NCBI GenBank assembly: GCA_903833275.1
Contig: CAILEP010000012.1
Span: forward strand, 62,001-126,000
Source: an uncultured Bdellovibrionales bacterium
GTDB lineage: Bacteria; Bdellovibrionota; Bdellovibrionia; Bdellovibrionales; UBA1609
Direction of reading: 5' to 3'
DNA length: 64,000 bases
Position 1 is the stretch's first letter; each line of letters opens with the position of its first letter. Below the pieces are notes generated by a model. It did not search any database, was not told the origin of the DNA, and saw nothing but the letters and a program-made list of their open reading frames with translations. Below are positions 43,672 to 52,814 of the stretch, in pieces. The position numbers and the translations under genes are program-made.

Positions 43672-45003
43672 ATGAAAGAAATGAAAACACCAACTCATTA
43701 CGAAACAGAATATTTTGCACTTCGCAATCTCGCCCCCCGACCCCCTTACGGCCCCGGCGACACTCTTGTTATATTCGGTGAAGTTTTCGAACGCGGCTAC
43801 GTAAACGGGTTAATCGATGAAGCCAAAAAAGCGGGGCTGAAAGTTATTTTTTCGACTGTCGGCCGGCGCGATGAAAACCTAAATTTGCGCGCCCTCACGA
43901 GCGATGAGCTGACCGCAAAAGGCCATTCGCCAATTATCAACATTCCTCTTGAGGCCGGCTTTGACCTTGAACTTGATGACAAAGGCAGGCGACCAGTCGA
44001 TCAATTAAAAGAATATGGGCTCTCCGGGTGGGAAGACGCCCACCTCGACTGGCCTAGCATCGAACAAGCTCGCCTTCGCGGCATCGAACGCATGCGAACA
44101 AACATAAAGCTGTTTATTAACGAACTTCGGCAACATGTCGACCTTAAGAAAAATTTGATTTTTGCGCACACCATGGCTGGTGGCTTTCCGAGAGCGCGCG
44201 TCGTAATGCCAATCGCCAATCGTGTTTTTAAGGGCTCGGGGCCTCGATATTTTTCAAGCGAAACCTTTTGGAAGAGCGAAATTGGCCAACTCTGCGAAAA
44301 AAGTTTTAACGAGGTGACAGCCGAAACGCTTCACCACCTTCTCGACCTCACGGGCGATCTGCGAAAGGCCATTGAGGGCAATGGCGCTCAAGTTAGCTAT
44401 ACGGCGTTTGGCTATCATGGCAACGAAGTGCTCGTCGGAGATAAATTTGAATGGTACTCGTACTCACCTTACCTTCAAGGCTTTGCCAAAGTTCGCCTCG
44501 AGCAAATCGCTAACCAGGCAACTCAAAATGGCATCAATTGCTGCGTGTTCAACGTGCCCGAGATTCTTACTAACAGCAGTAGTATTTTCTTAGGGGTTGA
44601 GGTCGTTCTTTACCCGCTGATGCGAGCCCTACGTAAGGCCGCCCCTCAGTCAGCTACCGTTAAGAACCTGTTGGCCCAATGCCAAAGTAAACTTAAGGAT
44701 GGCGCCACGGTCGACGATATCGATCGTATCACTCAAGACTATTTGCACAACCCGACAGTGCGCCAATGGCCAAGTTACAAGAAATGGCCACAACACAACG
44801 GGCCTGAACAAATGGAACTTATGCGAAACTGCTCCTCAGCACTTATTGATTTACACAAAAGCCCAAACGACTTAATGACTGCCGACTTAAGCGAAATTGT
44901 GTTTCGCGCCTGCGGAAAGATTATGTTTCATGAAATTGCAAAACCCGCAAAACCGGCTGTTTGGATTTGTCACGATCTAGTAACCAAAGTTACGCTTGCG
45001 TAA
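43672..45003 (+). CDS. Unassigned enzyme, possibly FabMG-like enoyl-ACP reductase
   Basis: 443 residues, cytoplasmic. The N-terminus has a Rossmann-like start ('DTLVIFGEVFERGYVNGLIDEAKKAGLKVIFSTVGRRDE'), then 'LIFAHTMAGGFPRARVVMPIANRVFKGSGPRYFSSETFW' and a Tyr/Phe-rich middle with 'YTAFGYHGNE'. I associate this pattern with the FabMG-type enoyl-ACP reductase group reported from Bdellovibrio-like bacteria, but that is memory without alignment. It follows waaA by 4 bases, which would couple fatty-acid or lipid A acyl supply with LPS assembly. Confidence 0.5.
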   Translation: MKEMKTPTHYETEYFALRNLAPRPPYGPGDTLVIFGEVFERGYVNGLIDEAKKAGLKVIFSTVGRRDENLNLRALTSDELTAKGHSPIINIPLEAGFDLELDDKGRRPVDQLKEYGLSGWEDAHLDWPSIEQARLRGIERMRTNIKLFINELRQHVDLKKNLIFAHTMAGGFPRARVVMPIANRVFKGSGPRYFSSETFWKSEIGQLCEKSFNEVTAETLHHLLDLTGDLRKAIEGNGAQVSYTAFGYHGNEVLVGDKFEWYSYSPYLQGFAKVRLEQIANQATQNGINCCVFNVPEILTNSSSIFLGVEVVLYPLMRALRKAAPQSATVKNLLAQCQSKLKDGATVDDIDRITQDYLHNPTVRQWPSYKKWPQHNGPEQMELMRNCSSALIDLHKSPNDLMTADLSEIVFRACGKIMFHEIAKPAKPAVWICHDLVTKVTLA

Positions 45004-45027: not shown

Positions 45028-47562
45028 TCAGTTTTCTTCCGGCCGCGGCTCTCGGCGGACTACGGCGGCGTTGGTTGCCGCAGTTTGTGCATTAACCATC
45101 GCCAGAACCTTTAGCACATTGAGCAAGCCAACTCGATCCACTCGCAAGGTGGGTGTTTTCGCTGTCGAGACTTGCCCGCTCTCGCCCGGCTCGTATTGAT
45201 TGAGATCGTTGTCGAAATAGCGATACTTATTCCAATAAAGAGTAAGAGCGTCGGTGCTTGTGGGTAAATTCTGGTGCTCAACAAGGTAGGCGAAAATCGA
45301 CTTTAAAAGCGAAATACTCACATCTTTGTGTTCGGTAGCACGAGCCTGTCTGGCCAGATAACCACTGAACCGCTTAAAAGAATGCATGACCTCGACGTCA
45401 GTAAGAACGTTGTCGTGATTACCGTCATAGATCGTAAAGATGGCCTCAAGATAGTGCAGCACCGTCACCATAGTCGCAATTTCACCCAGCTCAATATATT
45501 TCGCATCAGGTGTCGGCGATTTGCCGATTACCTCTAGCGCATCGGTGATCTGCTTTTTCTCACTCGCCTTGCGCGCAAGAAAGTCGTCGCGTAAATGCGG
45601 CAAGTTATCGAGTTCTGCTAATTTTAAATTAAAGAAGTGAGAAGTAAAACACTTGCGATCAAGCATGGGCACACCGAAAACATCAGATGGGCCATCCTTA
45701 AAGCCTTCTTGTCGGCAAAGGTTGCCAATATCGGAGTAAAACATATCCCGCACTTTGCCGCCCGACCAAATCGTAGACAACAGATCAAGCGCCTGAACAA
45801 AATTGAGTAGATGTGAGTTCTGCGCGTCGGGCTCGTTAATCCCGTTGCCGGCGAAGGTGAAAAGCTTGCCCTCAACAAATGATCGGCGTCCCACGCCAGC
45901 CCTTCGCGGGTCAAAGAGCTTTAAATCGATACCAAGGTTGCGAATCTTATTAAAAAACTCATCCATCTCGTCTTCTGTGACGCCGGTGTGTTGCCAATCC
46001 TTGTTCATCATCACGATACGATCGTCAGAGGCGGCCGATCGAATCAAAAGACGAACCAAGCCCCTCATTATGTTGAGCCGAGTCAGATCAAAAATACCGT
46101 CATAGACACCAGCATCGCCAAGCTCTTGCGGCGGCATTATGAAGGCCCGCTCATCACCAACCCGAAAAAAGGCCGGCACACTATGCACGATGCGCTCAAT
46201 TTCTCGACTGCGGGCATCCTTTTGATCGACTCCGCGATCTATGAACTGACGAAAATCAAAACTCTCAAGAGCCTTAGCAATCGGATCAAGCAAGCTATCG
46301 CCAGCACCAAACTTAAGCCCCAAAGAGCGGCGCGCATTGTCGCTTAAGTACTGTTGGCCTTCAGCCCATAAATAGAACTCAGCATGAATCTCATTTAGCT
46401 CTTGCCACGAAAGGCCTGAAACTTGTTCGTTTCTCGTCGTGCTGACTGGGTTGCGAAATGCTTTTTGAATTAAAAACTTATAGGTTTCTTTGATCGAATC
46501 AACCCGAACACCCGAAGGCAAACCCTGAATATCGTTAAGCGCATCAAACAGCTTGTCAGTTGCCGAAAACGAAATCAATTTAGATGGGTTCTGATCGATC
46601 ACCCGACCCAAAAGAGCCATGGCCTCATTGATACTCGCCACGAAAGAATCAAGCCCCGCCCCATAAGTCAGCGGAAGATCTTTCAACTGCAACTGAAAAT
46701 CAACCCAAATTCCGAATAGCGATGCCGCAGAGTCCATCAACATGACCCAGTCCTGCGGCAAAATTGTCAGCGAATCTTGACCCGTGACAATGGCTTTGTG
46801 CGCGGCGAACAGATTTACAATCTGCTCGGGGGTTTTATTGTCGGGTCGAATCTGCTCCCATCGCAGAAACTTGTGCATCTCCGTTAAAAGCCGTTCAAGT
46901 GAAGGCATATCGTAGCTTTGACCCTGAATGCGAAATCGATCGGCGATATGCTGCCCAGTTTGACGCAATTGATTTCGCATATTCGATAGTTCGAATCGCG
47001 AAATCTTAGCCCGCTCAAGATGCGGCGACTGCGTATAGAAATCTAGGTAAGGCAAATTGGCGATTGATTCGGCCTCAATAAAAGTAATGAGGTCGACGAG
47101 ACCGTTCATTTCTTGATCGGTAATCTGCTCTATTGACCCGCCCAAAGCCAAAACCTTGACCTTCATAATTTCGCGTACAAACGGTGGCGTCAATTGTTGC
47201 TCGTGCAAATACCATTTGTTTAAAAAAATCGCCAATTCATCAGGAGTGTAAAGACCCTTCGACCGACCGTCCACGGTATCAACAAACCGATGAAGTGCCG
47301 TACGAAGGCAGCCGCCAAATAGGTGAACATCCCGTTCTGACATTCGACCCGATAGGTAATCATCAACCCTCTTGCCCATTTCAGACATACAAGAGTACTT
47401 CGATAGATCAATTTGAATTGAACCAGGAGCCGGGCTTTTATCGCCAACACGTAGATTCTTAAAAGGTTGCCACTGACAAGCACCCAATTGACAGGCCGTA
47501 AATATCATCGCCGCAATGCACAACGAGGTTGAAAATACTTTGGCCAAGCTTTTAAAATACAT
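45028..47562 (-). CDS. Large EF-hand lipoprotein, copy 2 of duplicated module
   Basis: 844 residues: signal and lipobox near 'IFTAC' (Cys24), then a long helical protein. A near-perfect EF-hand calcium loop 'DGNHDNVLTDVE' sits at about 713-724 between helices. An N-terminal 'VDTVDGRSKGLYTPDELAIFLNKWY' and a middle 'GVTEDEMDEFFNKI' look like degenerate EF-hands. The C-terminal 'SIFAYLVEHQNLPTSTDALTLYWNKYR' and 'VDRVGLLNVLKVLAM' match the copy at 49136 segment by segment. It overlaps the upstream barrel gene by 11 bases. A calcium-responsive outer-membrane lipoprotein acting with that barrel is inferred; the family is not one I can name. Confidence 0.6.
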   Translation of the reverse strand: MYFKSLAKVFSTSLCIAAMIFTACQLGACQWQPFKNLRVGDKSPAPGSIQIDLSKYSCMSEMGKRVDDYLSGRMSERDVHLFGGCLRTALHRFVDTVDGRSKGLYTPDELAIFLNKWYLHEQQLTPPFVREIMKVKVLALGGSIEQITDQEMNGLVDLITFIEAESIANLPYLDFYTQSPHLERAKISRFELSNMRNQLRQTGQHIADRFRIQGQSYDMPSLERLLTEMHKFLRWEQIRPDNKTPEQIVNLFAAHKAIVTGQDSLTILPQDWVMLMDSAASLFGIWVDFQLQLKDLPLTYGAGLDSFVASINEAMALLGRVIDQNPSKLISFSATDKLFDALNDIQGLPSGVRVDSIKETYKFLIQKAFRNPVSTTRNEQVSGLSWQELNEIHAEFYLWAEGQQYLSDNARRSLGLKFGAGDSLLDPIAKALESFDFRQFIDRGVDQKDARSREIERIVHSVPAFFRVGDERAFIMPPQELGDAGVYDGIFDLTRLNIMRGLVRLLIRSAASDDRIVMMNKDWQHTGVTEDEMDEFFNKIRNLGIDLKLFDPRRAGVGRRSFVEGKLFTFAGNGINEPDAQNSHLLNFVQALDLLSTIWSGGKVRDMFYSDIGNLCRQEGFKDGPSDVFGVPMLDRKCFTSHFFNLKLAELDNLPHLRDDFLARKASEKKQITDALEVIGKSPTPDAKYIELGEIATMVTVLHYLEAIFTIYDGNHDNVLTDVEVMHSFKRFSGYLARQARATEHKDVSISLLKSIFAYLVEHQNLPTSTDALTLYWNKYRYFDNDLNQYEPGESGQVSTAKTPTLRVDRVGLLNVLKVLAMVNAQTAATNAAVVRREPRPEEN

Positions 47563-48961
47563 ACGAAAAGCTCCCGATCATGCGATCGTTGCCACGAAAT
47601 TTCGAAATGAAACTGGCGTTAGCATCAATCACGCCCGAGGCGCCAAAGATGTCTCCAGATAAATTCCAGAGCCAGCGCCGGTCGTATTGATAAGAAATGT
47701 CACCATGCAGCCACTCGCCCTGATCATCGACTGAATAAAAGTAGCCGACAGCGGCGTCGAGACTGTTGATAAAGTTATGAAAGATATTTTTCTCAAATTG
47801 CAAACCAGCCAGGCGCGAAAAAGAGAGCCGCTGGCTCGACGATTCTACACTGCCCTGTACAATAGTCTCTTTAGCCGCTGATGTCGCCTTGGTTCGCTGC
47901 ACATAACTCAGGTCTATATTCGCATTATGCAAACCAAAATTTGAGAGGTCGTGATTAAAAACTGCGCCCGTATATTGCGAGTCGATCAACTCTGACTGCT
48001 GAAACTTATCTGGCAAATTAGGGTTTTCAAATTTCTCCCACGTTTGAGAGAGCACAAACTGCCCCTCGTTAAATCTGTAGCCAGATTCGAGAGTGTAGAG
48101 ATTATGTTTCACAACGTAAGGATGCACGGTCACCGAGATGACCCCAGATGCCGCGGCAATAGTGGGCTCAAGACCTAAATGAAACTGGTTCATGGGCTTA
48201 TCAGCCACTGAAGCCTTAGCAAAAAGACCGTCGTTTCTTTGCCCAACTTCAACCATAAGCGCTTGGCTACCCTGATTCACCACGCTGGCTGTTGACGGTG
48301 TGTCGACGGCATAAAATATCTGAGCCTCGGTATTCTTAATTTCAGCCTGATCGACGGGCGGCCGAAACCATCGATTCGAAGAGGTGAATCGCCCGCCCTT
48401 GACACTAAAACCCGGCCCCTGATCAGGCAAAAATACCGAAGAAGCAAAATAAACAATGCGAAATTTTTGATCTTCGACCGTAGCAAACAGCCCCGTAAGG
48501 CCCTGGCTTATGGGTCGAACGGCATCCCAACGAGCGAGCGGTTGCCACAAACCTAAGTGACTGTGATCATCAAGCGACGACCAATCTTCTCGGTACCGAC
48601 CAAGGGTGAAATTCAAACGATGTGGTTCTGCCGTGTACCTGAAGTACATTTGTGGAACGGCCAACTGCTGGTCAACGCCGCCACTCGCTGGGATTACCGC
48701 CAAACCCTCTATCCCAATCTCGGAGTGCGGCGCATTCTCGTCCTGACCGAGTCGATGAGAATATGAAAATGTAGGAGCGAAATCGACATATTGATTTTGT
48801 TGTTCAGCGGTCGTGCCGGCCGTGCCGTAATTAAATTGCTCAGCCGAAAACTCAAAACGGTTCTGAGGGTCACCGGCGGCAGAAGTCGAACCAGTCATCT
48901 GATTCGAAAGCGATGTCGACAGCAATGGCGACATCGGTAGTGACATTGAATACGCCCCCAC
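47552..48961 (-). CDS. Outer-membrane barrel, copy 2 of duplicated module
   Basis: 469 residues as drawn, beta-strand-rich, ending 'SFSYVF' with C-terminal Phe. Segments 'LGRYREDWSSLDDHSHLGLWQPLARWDAVRPISQGLTGLF' and 'SSVFLPDQGPGF' align with the copy at 51339. The drawn GTG start gives no signal peptide. Upstream in the same frame, back to a stop at 49037-49039, lies a clear signal sequence ('KRLTRRLFLLIGSFYTLLCGVGAYS') with no ATG, GTG or TTG before it, so the true start uses an unusual codon or the front is mutated. The stop overlaps the EF-hand gene start by 11 nt. Confidence 0.6.
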   Translation of the reverse strand: MGAYSMSLPMSPLLSTSLSNQMTGSTSAAGDPQNRFEFSAEQFNYGTAGTTAEQQNQYVDFAPTFSYSHRLGQDENAPHSEIGIEGLAVIPASGGVDQQLAVPQMYFRYTAEPHRLNFTLGRYREDWSSLDDHSHLGLWQPLARWDAVRPISQGLTGLFATVEDQKFRIVYFASSVFLPDQGPGFSVKGGRFTSSNRWFRPPVDQAEIKNTEAQIFYAVDTPSTASVVNQGSQALMVEVGQRNDGLFAKASVADKPMNQFHLGLEPTIAAASGVISVTVHPYVVKHNLYTLESGYRFNEGQFVLSQTWEKFENPNLPDKFQQSELIDSQYTGAVFNHDLSNFGLHNANIDLSYVQRTKATSAAKETIVQGSVESSSQRLSFSRLAGLQFEKNIFHNFINSLDAAVGYFYSVDDQGEWLHGDISYQYDRRWLWNLSGDIFGASGVIDANASFISKFRGNDRMIGSFSYVF

Positions 48962-49135
48962 CCCGCAAAGGAGGGTATAAAACGACCCAATTAGTAGAAA
49001 AAGACGACGAGTTAAACGCTTAAAAGTACACCCCGTTTACTGGCCTTGGGATATACCATTTTGCTCAGGGCAAAACGAGTTTGAGAGCTAAAAAATATTC
49101 TTAACTAGAAGAAATTACAGGCCATTGGGGCAATC

Positions 49136-51349
49136 TTATAAACCCATTTTTGTTAGAATCGCGATGATCTGCAATATAGCAGCTCTGTCGATACCGAGCT
49201 CCCAATGGTCGCGCTTTAACTTCCAATTTTCGTATCTAACTGCCGAAAGAGGGTCGTCGGCACTGGGCAGCTCTCCATAGTGCAATAAATACGTGAAAAG
49301 CGACTCAAGCTCAGGCTGATCGCGTTCGGGGTCAAGGCCCAGCTTTGAGGCCACTGTCCCAGCCAAAAGCTTTAGTAAACTAAGCGACTCTTGCAGATTC
49401 AATTGCCCGTCGCGATCAACATCAAATCGTAACATTAAAACTTCTATGTAGCCCAATAGCACAAATGATTCATATATCGCCGAACGCGACATCGGAGTCG
49501 GAGCATCGCCCTCTTTGCGATTTACGATTTCTAAATTTCTAATATATTTCTGCCAACTCTTATCGCTCATCTTTTTTGCGTACTTTAGATGGATCGGCAT
49601 GTGCGCCAACATAGTGTCGGCTTTCGCCTGAAAATCTTTACGAAAACAATTTACATCGACGTTATTAGCATCAACATAACAAGATTTTTGCATGCCATCG
49701 ACCAATAAATGCCCAGCATCTATCCCTGAAAAAACAAAATGCACGTATTCAATAAGCTCGTTAAAGCTTAAAAATTTATCGCCATCGCTTCGGGGCATAA
49801 ATAAATTAGCGTCGCGAAATATTTTTTTATCGAAGGCCGTGTCGTCTTTACCCACCAAACCAAAAATCACAAGAAGTGGTTTTAGATCTAAATAGGCGGT
49901 GTGAAGCTCTGCGGGGTTAATTTCAAGCGTAACTTCGCGCCGATCTTTATCTTGAACGTAGGCATTGAAGACGAGGTGAAATAGAGCTCGCGCCCAATTC
50001 AATCGAGAATTGCTGTCAATATTCGGCGTCGCCTTTGCATTACCATCAAGAACAATGCGCCCATTAGGATCAAGACTCAGCGGCCAGGGGCCATTAATGA
50101 CCCCAACCATTTCGCCCCACGCTGGGTTGCCTGGCAATTGTACATTCATGACCAAGGCCCGCTGCACGCTCGCCCAATCGTCGATCTGAGCCTCGACATA
50201 ATCGATTTTTCGCGTGCTAATGCCAGACTCTGGAAACTGTTTCTGCGGGTTAAGAACAAAATTAACCATGCGACTTACGAAATTCTTAGCTGTGTCTTCG
50301 TCGATACCAGCTGGCAACAATTTTAGGTTTGCGGCCTCCGTGATAACATTATCGATATCCGAAAGCGGAAACGGCGCCCCCTTGCGACTCAAAATCCCCT
50401 GCCTTAGAATCTCAGTCAGGTCGAGCATCATGGCACGTATTTCAGAAAGCGGATCAATCGAAAGTAAACTATTGCCGCTCATATAGTAACTCGCCCGCAA
50501 GTAAACCGAATAGGCCCTTGCAAGTAGCGGCCCCAACGCCGACCAATCACTCGCCTCAACGCGCGAGCGATCTGAATTCATAAGAGCCCCTTTTATCTGA
50601 GCGAGCATAGGCACATAAGTTGAATAATCGCGAAAGGTCGACTTAGGGTTTTGATTGTGAAAATAAAGATAGAGCTCGTGCAAAAGACTGCTCAAATCCG
50701 AAAACTGATAGCGCGAATGATCGGTATTTAATAAATGAGTGAGCTGGTTGGCGGCTGAGCCAAAAGAACTCAAACCTTGGTCGGCAGACTCAGATGGAGG
50801 CATTGCGGGATGCCCGGGGCCATTAAAAAGCAACCCCGAATGGGGCACAAGCTCGAGAGATATGGCTTTAAAGGATTGGATTACCCCATAAGTTTGGTCG
50901 ATTTCTGTTCGACTCAGGGCCGCCGTCGAACCGCCTAGAAATAGACGCTTTAACTGCATCATCTGAGCCAATAGTTTATCGGAGATCACGTGCGTATCGC
51001 CAGGGGCCACTTTTGAGTCTTGCAAAAAATAATTCTCTAGAAACTCACGTATCTCTTCACCACTGTACTTCGCCTTGTCGGTGCCTTTAACGTAAGTTGA
51101 AAAACTATTGACAGCATAGTGAAGACAGCTCCACATGCCCGAAATCTCGGCTGACGAACCAGCCCCATTAAAGAAATTTTCGATGGCCACCGGCGCCTCT
51201 TTTAAGCAGCCGGCCCCTTTCAACTCGACCTGCGGAACTTGATAGTAAGGCTCTGATTGCTTAGCGCAACCCAATGGCGCTAAAACGGTGAGCGTCGAAA
51301 CAGCCAAAAGTAAAATCGAACGAAACGACTTTAATAAACTAATAAACAT
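49136..51349 (-). CDS. Large EF-hand lipoprotein, copy 1 of duplicated module
   Basis: 737 residues: signal and lipobox 'APLGC' (Cys28), long helical body. A textbook EF-hand loop 'DVDRDGQLNLQE' lies at about 643-654; 'PRSDGDKFLSFNE' near 540 is a partial one with Arg in the first position, and 'VKGTDKAKYSGEEI' near residue 95 is a vestige. Aligned by eye with the protein at 45028 along its whole length, for example 'LESLFTYLLHYGELPSADDPL' and 'IDRAAILQIIAIL' at the C-terminus. Calcium probably stabilises or switches the protein. It overlaps its own barrel gene by 11 bases. Confidence 0.6.
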   Translation of the reverse strand: MFISLLKSFRSILLLAVSTLTVLAPLGCAKQSEPYYQVPQVELKGAGCLKEAPVAIENFFNGAGSSAEISGMWSCLHYAVNSFSTYVKGTDKAKYSGEEIREFLENYFLQDSKVAPGDTHVISDKLLAQMMQLKRLFLGGSTAALSRTEIDQTYGVIQSFKAISLELVPHSGLLFNGPGHPAMPPSESADQGLSSFGSAANQLTHLLNTDHSRYQFSDLSSLLHELYLYFHNQNPKSTFRDYSTYVPMLAQIKGALMNSDRSRVEASDWSALGPLLARAYSVYLRASYYMSGNSLLSIDPLSEIRAMMLDLTEILRQGILSRKGAPFPLSDIDNVITEAANLKLLPAGIDEDTAKNFVSRMVNFVLNPQKQFPESGISTRKIDYVEAQIDDWASVQRALVMNVQLPGNPAWGEMVGVINGPWPLSLDPNGRIVLDGNAKATPNIDSNSRLNWARALFHLVFNAYVQDKDRREVTLEINPAELHTAYLDLKPLLVIFGLVGKDDTAFDKKIFRDANLFMPRSDGDKFLSFNELIEYVHFVFSGIDAGHLLVDGMQKSCYVDANNVDVNCFRKDFQAKADTMLAHMPIHLKYAKKMSDKSWQKYIRNLEIVNRKEGDAPTPMSRSAIYESFVLLGYIEVLMLRFDVDRDGQLNLQESLSLLKLLAGTVASKLGLDPERDQPELESLFTYLLHYGELPSADDPLSAVRYENWKLKRDHWELGIDRAAILQIIAILTKMGL

Positions 51350-52814
51350 AGCTCACATCCAATCCAACCGTGCTGTTTGCGTGGTAAGTCTGAATAAAAC
51401 CTGTGCTGTACGGGTTCGAAGCATCTGAGAAAACGCCCAAAATATCGGCCCGCGCGCGAGTTTGCAGTTCACGACTCCAGCGATATCGAACTTGGCTTAA
51501 TAAAACGCCGCCATTTTGGCGCGGGTCAACGGTGCCTTCGACACCATAACCCAATTCGCGGCCTTGGGCCTTTTCTTGGGAGTGATCAAAGCCCATGCGA
51601 ATGGCCGAAAGCCAAGTTGGTCGCAATTCAAACTGAGAGGCCGACTGCGCATTCTCACCGCGATCAGGTGGGAAGTCGGTCCAATCATACATTACACCGC
51701 CATAGATCACATCACGGCGCGAGCCATCGGGGTGCCAGTTGAGAGTGAGTGATGCTAACACCGAAGGCGCCATATCTTGAGCAATCCATTGCGCCGGAGT
51801 GTCTTTAACTTGGGGAGCATCATAGGTCACCGATGGTATGATCGCAACATCCCCGGTCTTCATCTGACTTTCAATGGTCGCAATGTGGTGGTAAATAAAT
51901 TGCGGTTCAACTGTTGCCTGCATAAGGGTCGAACTGGCCAACGCCGTTAAGTAATAACTATACCCCAAAATCGGGCTATTCATTGGCTTATAGGCATATG
52001 ATCCACGCAACCAAGTGTCGTTCTCGGCATGAATTTCAGACCTTAAGGCAATTGAGGGCTTAAACACAGTGTCTGGCACCGAAGGGCTGTCGATCGAGAC
52101 GTGAACATCAGTGGCGCGCTTAAATAGATCCACGACCGGTGGCGGTGTTTTAAACCAGGGGTTGTTCGAAACAATCTGATCGTTCTGTTCTCTAAAGTTG
52201 GCGCCCATCGAAGGTAAATAAATCGGGGTGACAAAAACCGAAACCTTGACCGAGTTGTCCAAGTCAGTTTGAACAAAAACACCGGTTAGGCCGTTTTCAT
52301 CAGGCCGAAGTTTGTCCCAATTAAATTGAGGCTGCCAATAACCCATGCGCCAAAACGAATCGGCCTGTGACCACTCTTCAAGATGTCGGCCAAACCAAAT
52401 ATTGTAATTTTCGCGATGAAAATCGTGACTCGCCTCACGCACGTCAAAATAATGAAAGTCTTCTTGGCTAGAATAAAACCAACTGCCGTCGACAAAATTA
52501 TCATTACTTTGACCAACGACCGAAGCGCCGATGGTCGTTAAACCGCTGGTTTTTTCTTTCGCTCCAAAATAGGGCTTATCTGAATCCGGAAAAGCATCAT
52601 AGTTCAAATCGAGAGTGCCTTTAATTTGGCCCGGCTTAGCTAATTTCAAGGCTGTGACTGAGAGCTCTTGGGCATGGGCCCCTGGCAAATAAAACAATGC
52701 TGTCGCCAAAATGGATGCAAACAGCGGCCACAACGTGACCCGTGTCATCATTAACGATGTCACTTCTTGCGGTCTTGCCTTGTTTTTTTTAGTAGCCTTG
52801 TGCATTCTCTTCAC
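51339..52814 (-). CDS. Outer-membrane barrel, copy 1 of duplicated module
   Basis: 491 residues with a long n-region and signal sequence ('LWPLFASILATALFYLPGAHA', cleavage near 48), then porin-like beta strands to a C-terminal 'VSYVY'. 'FGRHLEEWSQADSFWRMGYWQPQFNWDKLRPDENGLTGVF' and 'NPWFKTPPPV' correspond to the second barrel's 'LGRYREDW...' and 'NRWFRPPV'. The protein may be a channel or a platform that carries the lipoprotein. It heads the minus-strand four-gene region and is divergent from acs. Confidence 0.62.
   Translation of the reverse strand: MKRMHKATKKNKARPQEVTSLMMTRVTLWPLFASILATALFYLPGAHAQELSVTALKLAKPGQIKGTLDLNYDAFPDSDKPYFGAKEKTSGLTTIGASVVGQSNDNFVDGSWFYSSQEDFHYFDVREASHDFHRENYNIWFGRHLEEWSQADSFWRMGYWQPQFNWDKLRPDENGLTGVFVQTDLDNSVKVSVFVTPIYLPSMGANFREQNDQIVSNNPWFKTPPPVVDLFKRATDVHVSIDSPSVPDTVFKPSIALRSEIHAENDTWLRGSYAYKPMNSPILGYSYYLTALASSTLMQATVEPQFIYHHIATIESQMKTGDVAIIPSVTYDAPQVKDTPAQWIAQDMAPSVLASLTLNWHPDGSRRDVIYGGVMYDWTDFPPDRGENAQSASQFELRPTWLSAIRMGFDHSQEKAQGRELGYGVEGTVDPRQNGGVLLSQVRYRWSRELQTRARADILGVFSDASNPYSTGFIQTYHANSTVGLDVSYVY

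Follow-up and report, generated by a model that had tools for sequence, protein, structure and literature searches.

Outer-membrane barrels that work with a lipoprotein partner are known from several bacteria. The alginate exporter of Pseudomonas combines the barrel AlgE with its tetratricopeptide repeat (TPR) lipoprotein AlgK (PMC9734138), and in the SusC/SusD importers barrel and lipoprotein genes likewise lie side by side. In Bdellovibrio, PopA, of the lipid-trapping, porin-like PopA/Bd0427 family, is a 16-strand pentamer of about 350 amino acids (aa) (PMC12228718). Here we compare with these systems a duplicated pair of genes, BAR (barrel) and LIP (lipoprotein), in a 64,000-nucleotide stretch of contig CAILEP010000012.1 from an uncultured Bdellovibrionales bacterium, hereafter the window. 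In each of two consecutive minus-strand units (52814–49136 and ~49020–45028), a large lipoprotein gene follows a barrel gene, and all four genes of the duplicated module described in the initial annotation are in place: BAR1 and BAR2 are 29% identical over 228 aa (E=2e-30), and LIP1 and LIP2 are 20% identical across their whole length (E=7e-22). The same annotation knew of no named family for the pair. Indeed, a Pfam and NCBIfam scan of the four proteins returned no covering family, only sub-threshold EF-hand and unconvincing weak matches, and no description of the pair was found in the open-licence literature searched, although a prior mention elsewhere is possible. As a whole, the data are best explained by a phylum-specific BAR-LIP outer-membrane complex with a calcium-stabilised EF-hand solenoid and a role in export or biogenesis, a reading that we hold with moderate confidence.

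In layout the pair resembles AlgE-AlgK, likewise a barrel with a neighbouring all-helical repeat lipoprotein, and AlgE is among the best Foldseek matches of BAR1 (template modelling score, TM, 0.45-0.47; root-mean-square deviation, rmsd, 8-9 Å), with other porins scoring alike. However, no alginate genes were noticed near BAR-LIP. Homology was rejected for both partners: BAR has no Pfam alginate exporter match and finds no PDB AlgE chain by sequence, and no TPR match was seen in LIP1, LIP2 or 42 homologues, whose repeats are EF-hand-like. The two systems appear comparable by analogy of layout and unrelated by descent. PopA/Bd0427 shares with BAR the character of an outer-membrane barrel typical of Bdellovibrio, but BAR is larger, at 450-530 aa and about 20 strands. 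Membership of the PopA family was discarded, there being no PDB sequence match and no PopA among the 50 best folds. Within the EF-hand superfamily, the penta-EF-hand proteins (calpain-3, sorcin, ALG-2) have the canonical loop and the loop-to-loop beta bridges predicted for LIP in common with it. Unlike these matches, which contain far fewer units, LIP has about eleven helix-loop-helix units with one canonical loop and is an exported lipoprotein. None of the matching EF-hand members is known to be an outer-membrane lipoprotein with a cognate barrel.

Co-distribution, linkage and joint inheritance

Profiles of the barrel (A1) and the lipoprotein (A2), of 42 sequences each, were searched against 369 Bdellovibrionota genomes and matched 296 and 295 of them, respectively. 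Co-occurrence in related genomes had been named beforehand as an observation on which the proposed complex depended, and it is clearly seen. Both genes were found in 291 genomes, the barrel alone in five (G076, G250, G275, G276 and G342), the lipoprotein alone in four (G044, G198, G214 and G358) and neither in 69, counts which do not represent independent events since the genomes are related, though few genomes have one gene and not the other. A search with LIP1 as a single sequence gave matches in 121 of the 144 genomes of the class. The pair extends over more than 120 genera at roughly one to three copies per genome across the phylum, and two diverged copies (type 1 and type 2) are present in the lineage of the window and in most of its relatives. 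Two pairs (L033 and L034) were also found in genome G004, which we take to be Bdellovibrio bacteriovorus HD100. Interpolation from the bd2368-bd2377 gliding cluster would place them at roughly Bd2355-2358 and Bd2410-2418 in HD100; in the open-licence literature searched, no Bd241x tag is mentioned, and the sole Bd235x tag, Bd2354, belongs to a THIF-family protein.

To look beyond the phylum, the barrel motif was turned into a degenerate DNA pattern and run against a collection of one genome per species (84,980 species), in which about four chance matches are expected. It hit 89 stretches, of which 83 encode the barrel by profile and six do not. The barrel-bearing records shown have Bdellovibrionota-type or generic names, bar one with a Streptomyces griseus title. 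This contig, titled as a metagenome-assembled genome (L194), has 15,507 bases as in contig C74 of genome G030 of this order and carries a BAR-LIP pair; the record is probably a mislabelled bin. The pair would so far seem confined to Bdellovibrionota, its absence elsewhere resting on the DNA motif pattern rather than on profiles.

Among the fetched loci of the class, 77 pairs are adjacent, and in 71 of these an in-frame lipoprotein ATG lies 11 bases before the barrel end. The same arrangement is seen in 67 of 74 pairs of the DNA-pattern set, which overlaps the class loci in some genomes. Further, at least one barrel lies beside a lipoprotein in each of the 17 genomes sampled, two of which come from another family of the same order and 15 from outside the class. 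Other arrangements also exist. The two genes are divergent rather than tandem in three genera of family f12 (G144:C85, G147:C2 and G186:C1), one genome has the reversed order (L088), and family f8 keeps both genes unlinked. Lipoproteins of the family lacking an adjacent barrel match were noted at G320:C3:262854-266432 and G171:C2:230159-231868. Linkage that outlasts changes in gene order, together with co-presence where the genes are unlinked, argues for a shared function.

The two proteins also share their history. Across 75 full-length pairs, barrel and lipoprotein distances correlate with r=0.87 (shuffled maximum 0.18), and when the two pairs at one locus exchanged partners, the agreement fell in 1000 of 1000 trials. 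Judged from these sequence comparisons, the BAR-LIP module is inherited as a unit, which by itself does not prove protein contact. The two genes could be co-inherited neighbours only, an ordinary porin next to a separate calcium-stabilised periplasmic scaffold lipoprotein. While their separation in family f8 fits this, and tree agreement alone says nothing of contact, co-presence persists when the genes are unlinked and linkage survives both the divergent order in part of family f12 and the reversal in L088, which leaves mere neighbourhood improbable. That BAR and LIP form a physical complex is, in our judgement, likely.

Predicted folds and the calcium-type loop

The AlphaFold2 model of BAR1 (predicted local distance difference test, pLDDT, 88.4; predicted template modelling score, pTM, 0.83) is a barrel of about 20 strands, the exact count being approximate. 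The quality of the model, Foldseek matches to porins and exporters, and the YVF at the end of most homologues identify BAR as a predicted outer-membrane barrel. The top-ranking PDB folds for BAR1, at TM ~0.45, include MOMP, AlgE and Occ/OprD porins alike and thus point to no particular family, and the barrel profile found no chain among PDB sequences at E<=1. The most conserved parts of BAR1 are two long loops (residues 145-175 and 197-232), and the motifs that the initial annotation quoted as shared by the two barrels prove to be the most conserved part of the phylum-wide family. Surface loops are usually the most variable part of a porin. The conserved loops of BAR may plug the barrel, gate it or bind a partner.

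A barrel of this kind might instead serve nutrient uptake, BAR being a diffusion or substrate-specific channel and LIP a substrate-capturing surface lid, as in SusC/SusD. The BAR fold matches Occ/OprD-type and other porins as well as it matches AlgE, and the two conserved long loops could hold such a lid. However, Pfam and NCBIfam gave no TonB-dependent receptor, plug or SusD match, on which grounds a SusC/SusD assignment was rejected, and substrate-specific uptake pairs tend to differ widely in copy number, unlike BAR-LIP, which is steady at about one to three. An uptake system is accordingly unlikely, if the least unlikely of the alternatives weighed here.

LIP1 is all-helical in its AlphaFold2 model (pLDDT 89.7, pTM 0.82). 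All 76 homologues have a lipid cysteine that follows a hydrophobic stretch at the N-terminus, with a lipobox-like motif in 50 of them, as in bacterial lipoproteins, and four further cysteines (C48, C75, C557 and C568) are conserved in 75 of 76. The residue at +2 after the lipid cysteine is mostly S, G or A, with D in five homologues including that of HD100; in E. coli, D at +2 causes inner-membrane retention of lipoproteins.

The initial annotation had credited the lipoproteins with calcium-binding EF-hand loops. A calcium-type loop under selection is indeed present, but each LIP has just one canonical loop plus a degenerate second site, the remainder being EF-hand-like by repeat analysis and predicted fold. 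The profiles of LIP1 residues 64-176 and 184-290 (pairs 1 and 2) align in register by hhalign (probability 95.4, E=1.7e-8), residues 296-402 (pair 3) align in register to both at probabilities of 13-22 (column-shuffle null maximum 2.6), and a profile alignment matches residues 513-531 to the canonical loop (column-shuffled controls <=2.6). A U9-U10 repeat match was dropped as its windows overlap. Longer lipoproteins contain extra modules, with four or five matches in 14 of 15 proteins of at least 950 aa and two or three in all 58 of fewer than 900 aa. In family f3, lipoproteins of ~1000-1120 aa (L033, L038 and L069-L087) carry two extra EF-hand-like pair modules, an intra-array duplication.

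Short strand or bridge elements appear in the LIP1 model at residues 94-96, 144-146, 214-215, 263-264, 327, 377, 477-478, 527-528, 620-621, 650 and 720. They fall at loop position 8, mostly ~50 residues apart within a pair, which is where paired EF-hand loops would be expected to meet. The predicted structure thereby presents the helix-loop-helix units with a short beta bridge that characterise EF-hands. The listed Foldseek matches with a probability of at least 0.8 are all EF-hand proteins (calpain-3, sorcin, an ALG-2-like protein and URE3-BP), and the LIP profile finds GCAP-2 (E=7e-5) and ALG-2 (E=4e-4) among PDB sequences. A search of the PDB with the single LIP1 sequence gave nothing useful, and LIP1 alone does not reach the curated Pfam EF-hand cut-off (EF-hand_1 at residues 637-654, 19.8 vs 25.4 bits). 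Repeats, fold matches, extra modules and bridges combined, the whole of LIP appears to be an EF-hand-like tandem array.

In the canonical loop, 76 homologues keep D at position 1 (71/76), D, N or S at positions 3 (69/76) and 5 (67/76), a hydrophobic residue at position 8 (76/76) and E or D at position 12 (76/76), the pattern of an EF-hand loop, while positions 2, 4, 10 and 11 vary freely. By this alignment the loop is under clear constraint, its calcium-ligand positions kept across the phylum. LIP likely binds calcium, probably as a structural part rather than a signal. Calcium sensing, as raised in the initial annotation, is a hypothesis, and the lone canonical loop may do no more than stabilise the LIP fold.

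Genomic setting and gene coordinates

The BAR-LIP pairs in the window are flanked by opposite-strand genes, and the type-2 pair adjoins genes for a FabMG enoyl-acyl carrier protein (ACP) reductase, a Kdo transferase and a GT9 heptosyltransferase. The FabMG-type gene (window 43672-45003, plus strand) is a recurrent neighbour of pairs in family f1. Of the fetched loci, 16 (15 of family f3 and one of f1) have GT9 and KdtA genes near the type-2 pair, and in three families the type-2 copy stands beside lipopolysaccharide (LPS)-core glycosyltransferase genes. In eight loci of family f8 (L042, L045, L052, L089 and L091-L094), a lone lipoprotein gene is divergent from a GT9 gene and the barrel is elsewhere in the genome. 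The type-2 setting hints at LPS or surface-glycan biology.

This neighbourhood favours envelope export or biogenesis over the adhesion or prey contact suggested in the initial annotation. A calcium-using prey-contact or adhesion complex would fit the presence of the pair in predatory genera, including Bdellovibrio, and the conserved calcium-type loop. However, the spread over so many genera at stable copy number, BAR loops that are conserved rather than variable, the LPS-gene setting and the lack of any link to predation in the open-licence literature searched all count against such a complex, and of the alternatives considered it strikes us as the most doubtful.

The coordinates of the pairs and their parts are collected in Table 1. 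Upstream of the GTG at 48961, BAR2 has an in-frame signal-peptide stretch, KRLTRRLFLLIGSFYTLLCGVGA (window 48961-49060, minus strand), that contains no ATG, GTG or TTG start; an ATG is present in another frame of this stretch. From the sequence, an assembly frameshift or a rare start codon is possible.

Table 1. Positions in the window of the two BAR-LIP pairs and of their predicted parts (ORF, open reading frame).
Feature	Position	Strand	Basis
BAR1, outer-membrane beta-barrel, 491 aa, C-terminal YVY	51339..52814	-	ORF; AlphaFold2; homology to BAR2
BAR1 conserved segment GRHLEEWSQADSFWRMGYWQPQFNWDKLRPDENGLTGVF (strand, long loop, strand)	52275..52391	-	top-conserved block of barrel family
BAR1 second conserved long loop, residues 197-232	52119..52226	-	conservation above barrel mean; loop in AlphaFold2 model
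11-base overlap, LIP1 ATG within final BAR1 codons (TAT GTT TAT TAG)	51339..51349	-	sequence
LIP1, lipoprotein of EF-hand-like pairs, 737 aa; lipid cysteine C28; conserved C48, C75, C557, C568	49136..51349	-	ORF; AlphaFold2
LIP1 EF-hand-like pair 1 (units U1-U2)	50822..51160	-	hhalign to pair 2, in register
LIP1 EF-hand-like pair 2 (units U3-U4)	50480..50800	-	repeat analysis
LIP1 EF-hand-like pair 3 (units U5-U6)	50144..50464	-	in-register matches to pairs 1 and 2
LIP1 EF-hand-like pair 4 (units U7-U8)	49691..50020	-	repeat analysis
Degenerate site DANLFMPRSDGDKFLSFNE within LIP1 pair 4	49757-49813	-	repeat analysis; homologue alignment
LIP1 EF-hand pair 5 (units U9-U10)	49325..49570	-	sub-cut-off Pfam EF-hand_1; AlphaFold2 model
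LIP1 canonical EF-hand loop DVDRDGQLNLQE, residues 643-654	49388..49423	-	ligand positions conserved in 76 homologues
BAR2, second barrel, 469 aa from GTG 48961; in-frame signal peptide upstream to ~49020	47552..49020	-	ORF; sequence
BAR2 conserved segment GRYREDWSSLDDHSHLGLWQPLARWDAVRPISQGLTGLF	48485..48601	-	family conservation
11-base overlap, LIP2 ATG within final BAR2 codons (TAT GTA TTT TAA)	47552..47562	-	sequence
LIP2, second lipoprotein of EF-hand-like pairs, 844 aa	45028..47562	-	ORF; LIP1 homology; repeat modules
LIP2 canonical EF-hand loop DGNHDNVLTDVE, residues 713-724	45391..45426	-	homologue alignment

Proposed role of the BAR-LIP pair

In the proposed outer-membrane complex, BAR would supply the pore as a ~20-strand barrel with two conserved long loops. 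LIP, anchored through its N-terminal cysteine, would form a solenoid of at least five EF-hand-like pairs. The conserved pairs of cysteines would lock this solenoid, as would one canonical EF loop, loaded with calcium, close to the C-terminus. The overlapping genes would let the two proteins be made together, and LIP would dock on BAR as a scaffold, gate or guide. The complex would most likely carry a glycan or lipid of the envelope or cell surface into the outer membrane or through it. A transport or export role, taken on its own, is put forward tentatively and carries less than even confidence. A bolder version, in which LIP acts as an EF-hand superhelix, responds to calcium and opens or guides BAR, making the pair a calcium-controlled transport machine and an ancestral envelope system marking the Bdellovibrionota, seems to us quite unlikely.

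Several observations weigh against the proposed complex. Linkage and tree agreement are also expected under simple co-inheritance, and contact is something that we infer. With TM about 0.46 and rmsd about 9 Å, the Foldseek match between the BAR1 model and AlgE is generic, many porins scoring much the same, and the EF-hand matches to the LIP1 chain, though high in probability, have E values of 0.2 or worse. Of 42 lipoproteins, 10 do not fit a strict canonical-loop pattern. Finally, the GT9/KdtA neighbourhood could be old retained synteny, and no polysaccharide synthase was noticed in the loci.

Regardless, a pair kept in about 80% of the genomes of the phylum, presumably including the model predator B. 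bacteriovorus HD100, has no Pfam or NCBIfam model. A lipoprotein in which serial, mostly degenerate EF-hand pairs form a structural solenoid would, if true, be an unusual architecture. The BAR and LIP genes provide a short candidate list for outer-membrane traits specific to the Bdellovibrionota and for the relevance of calcium to them.

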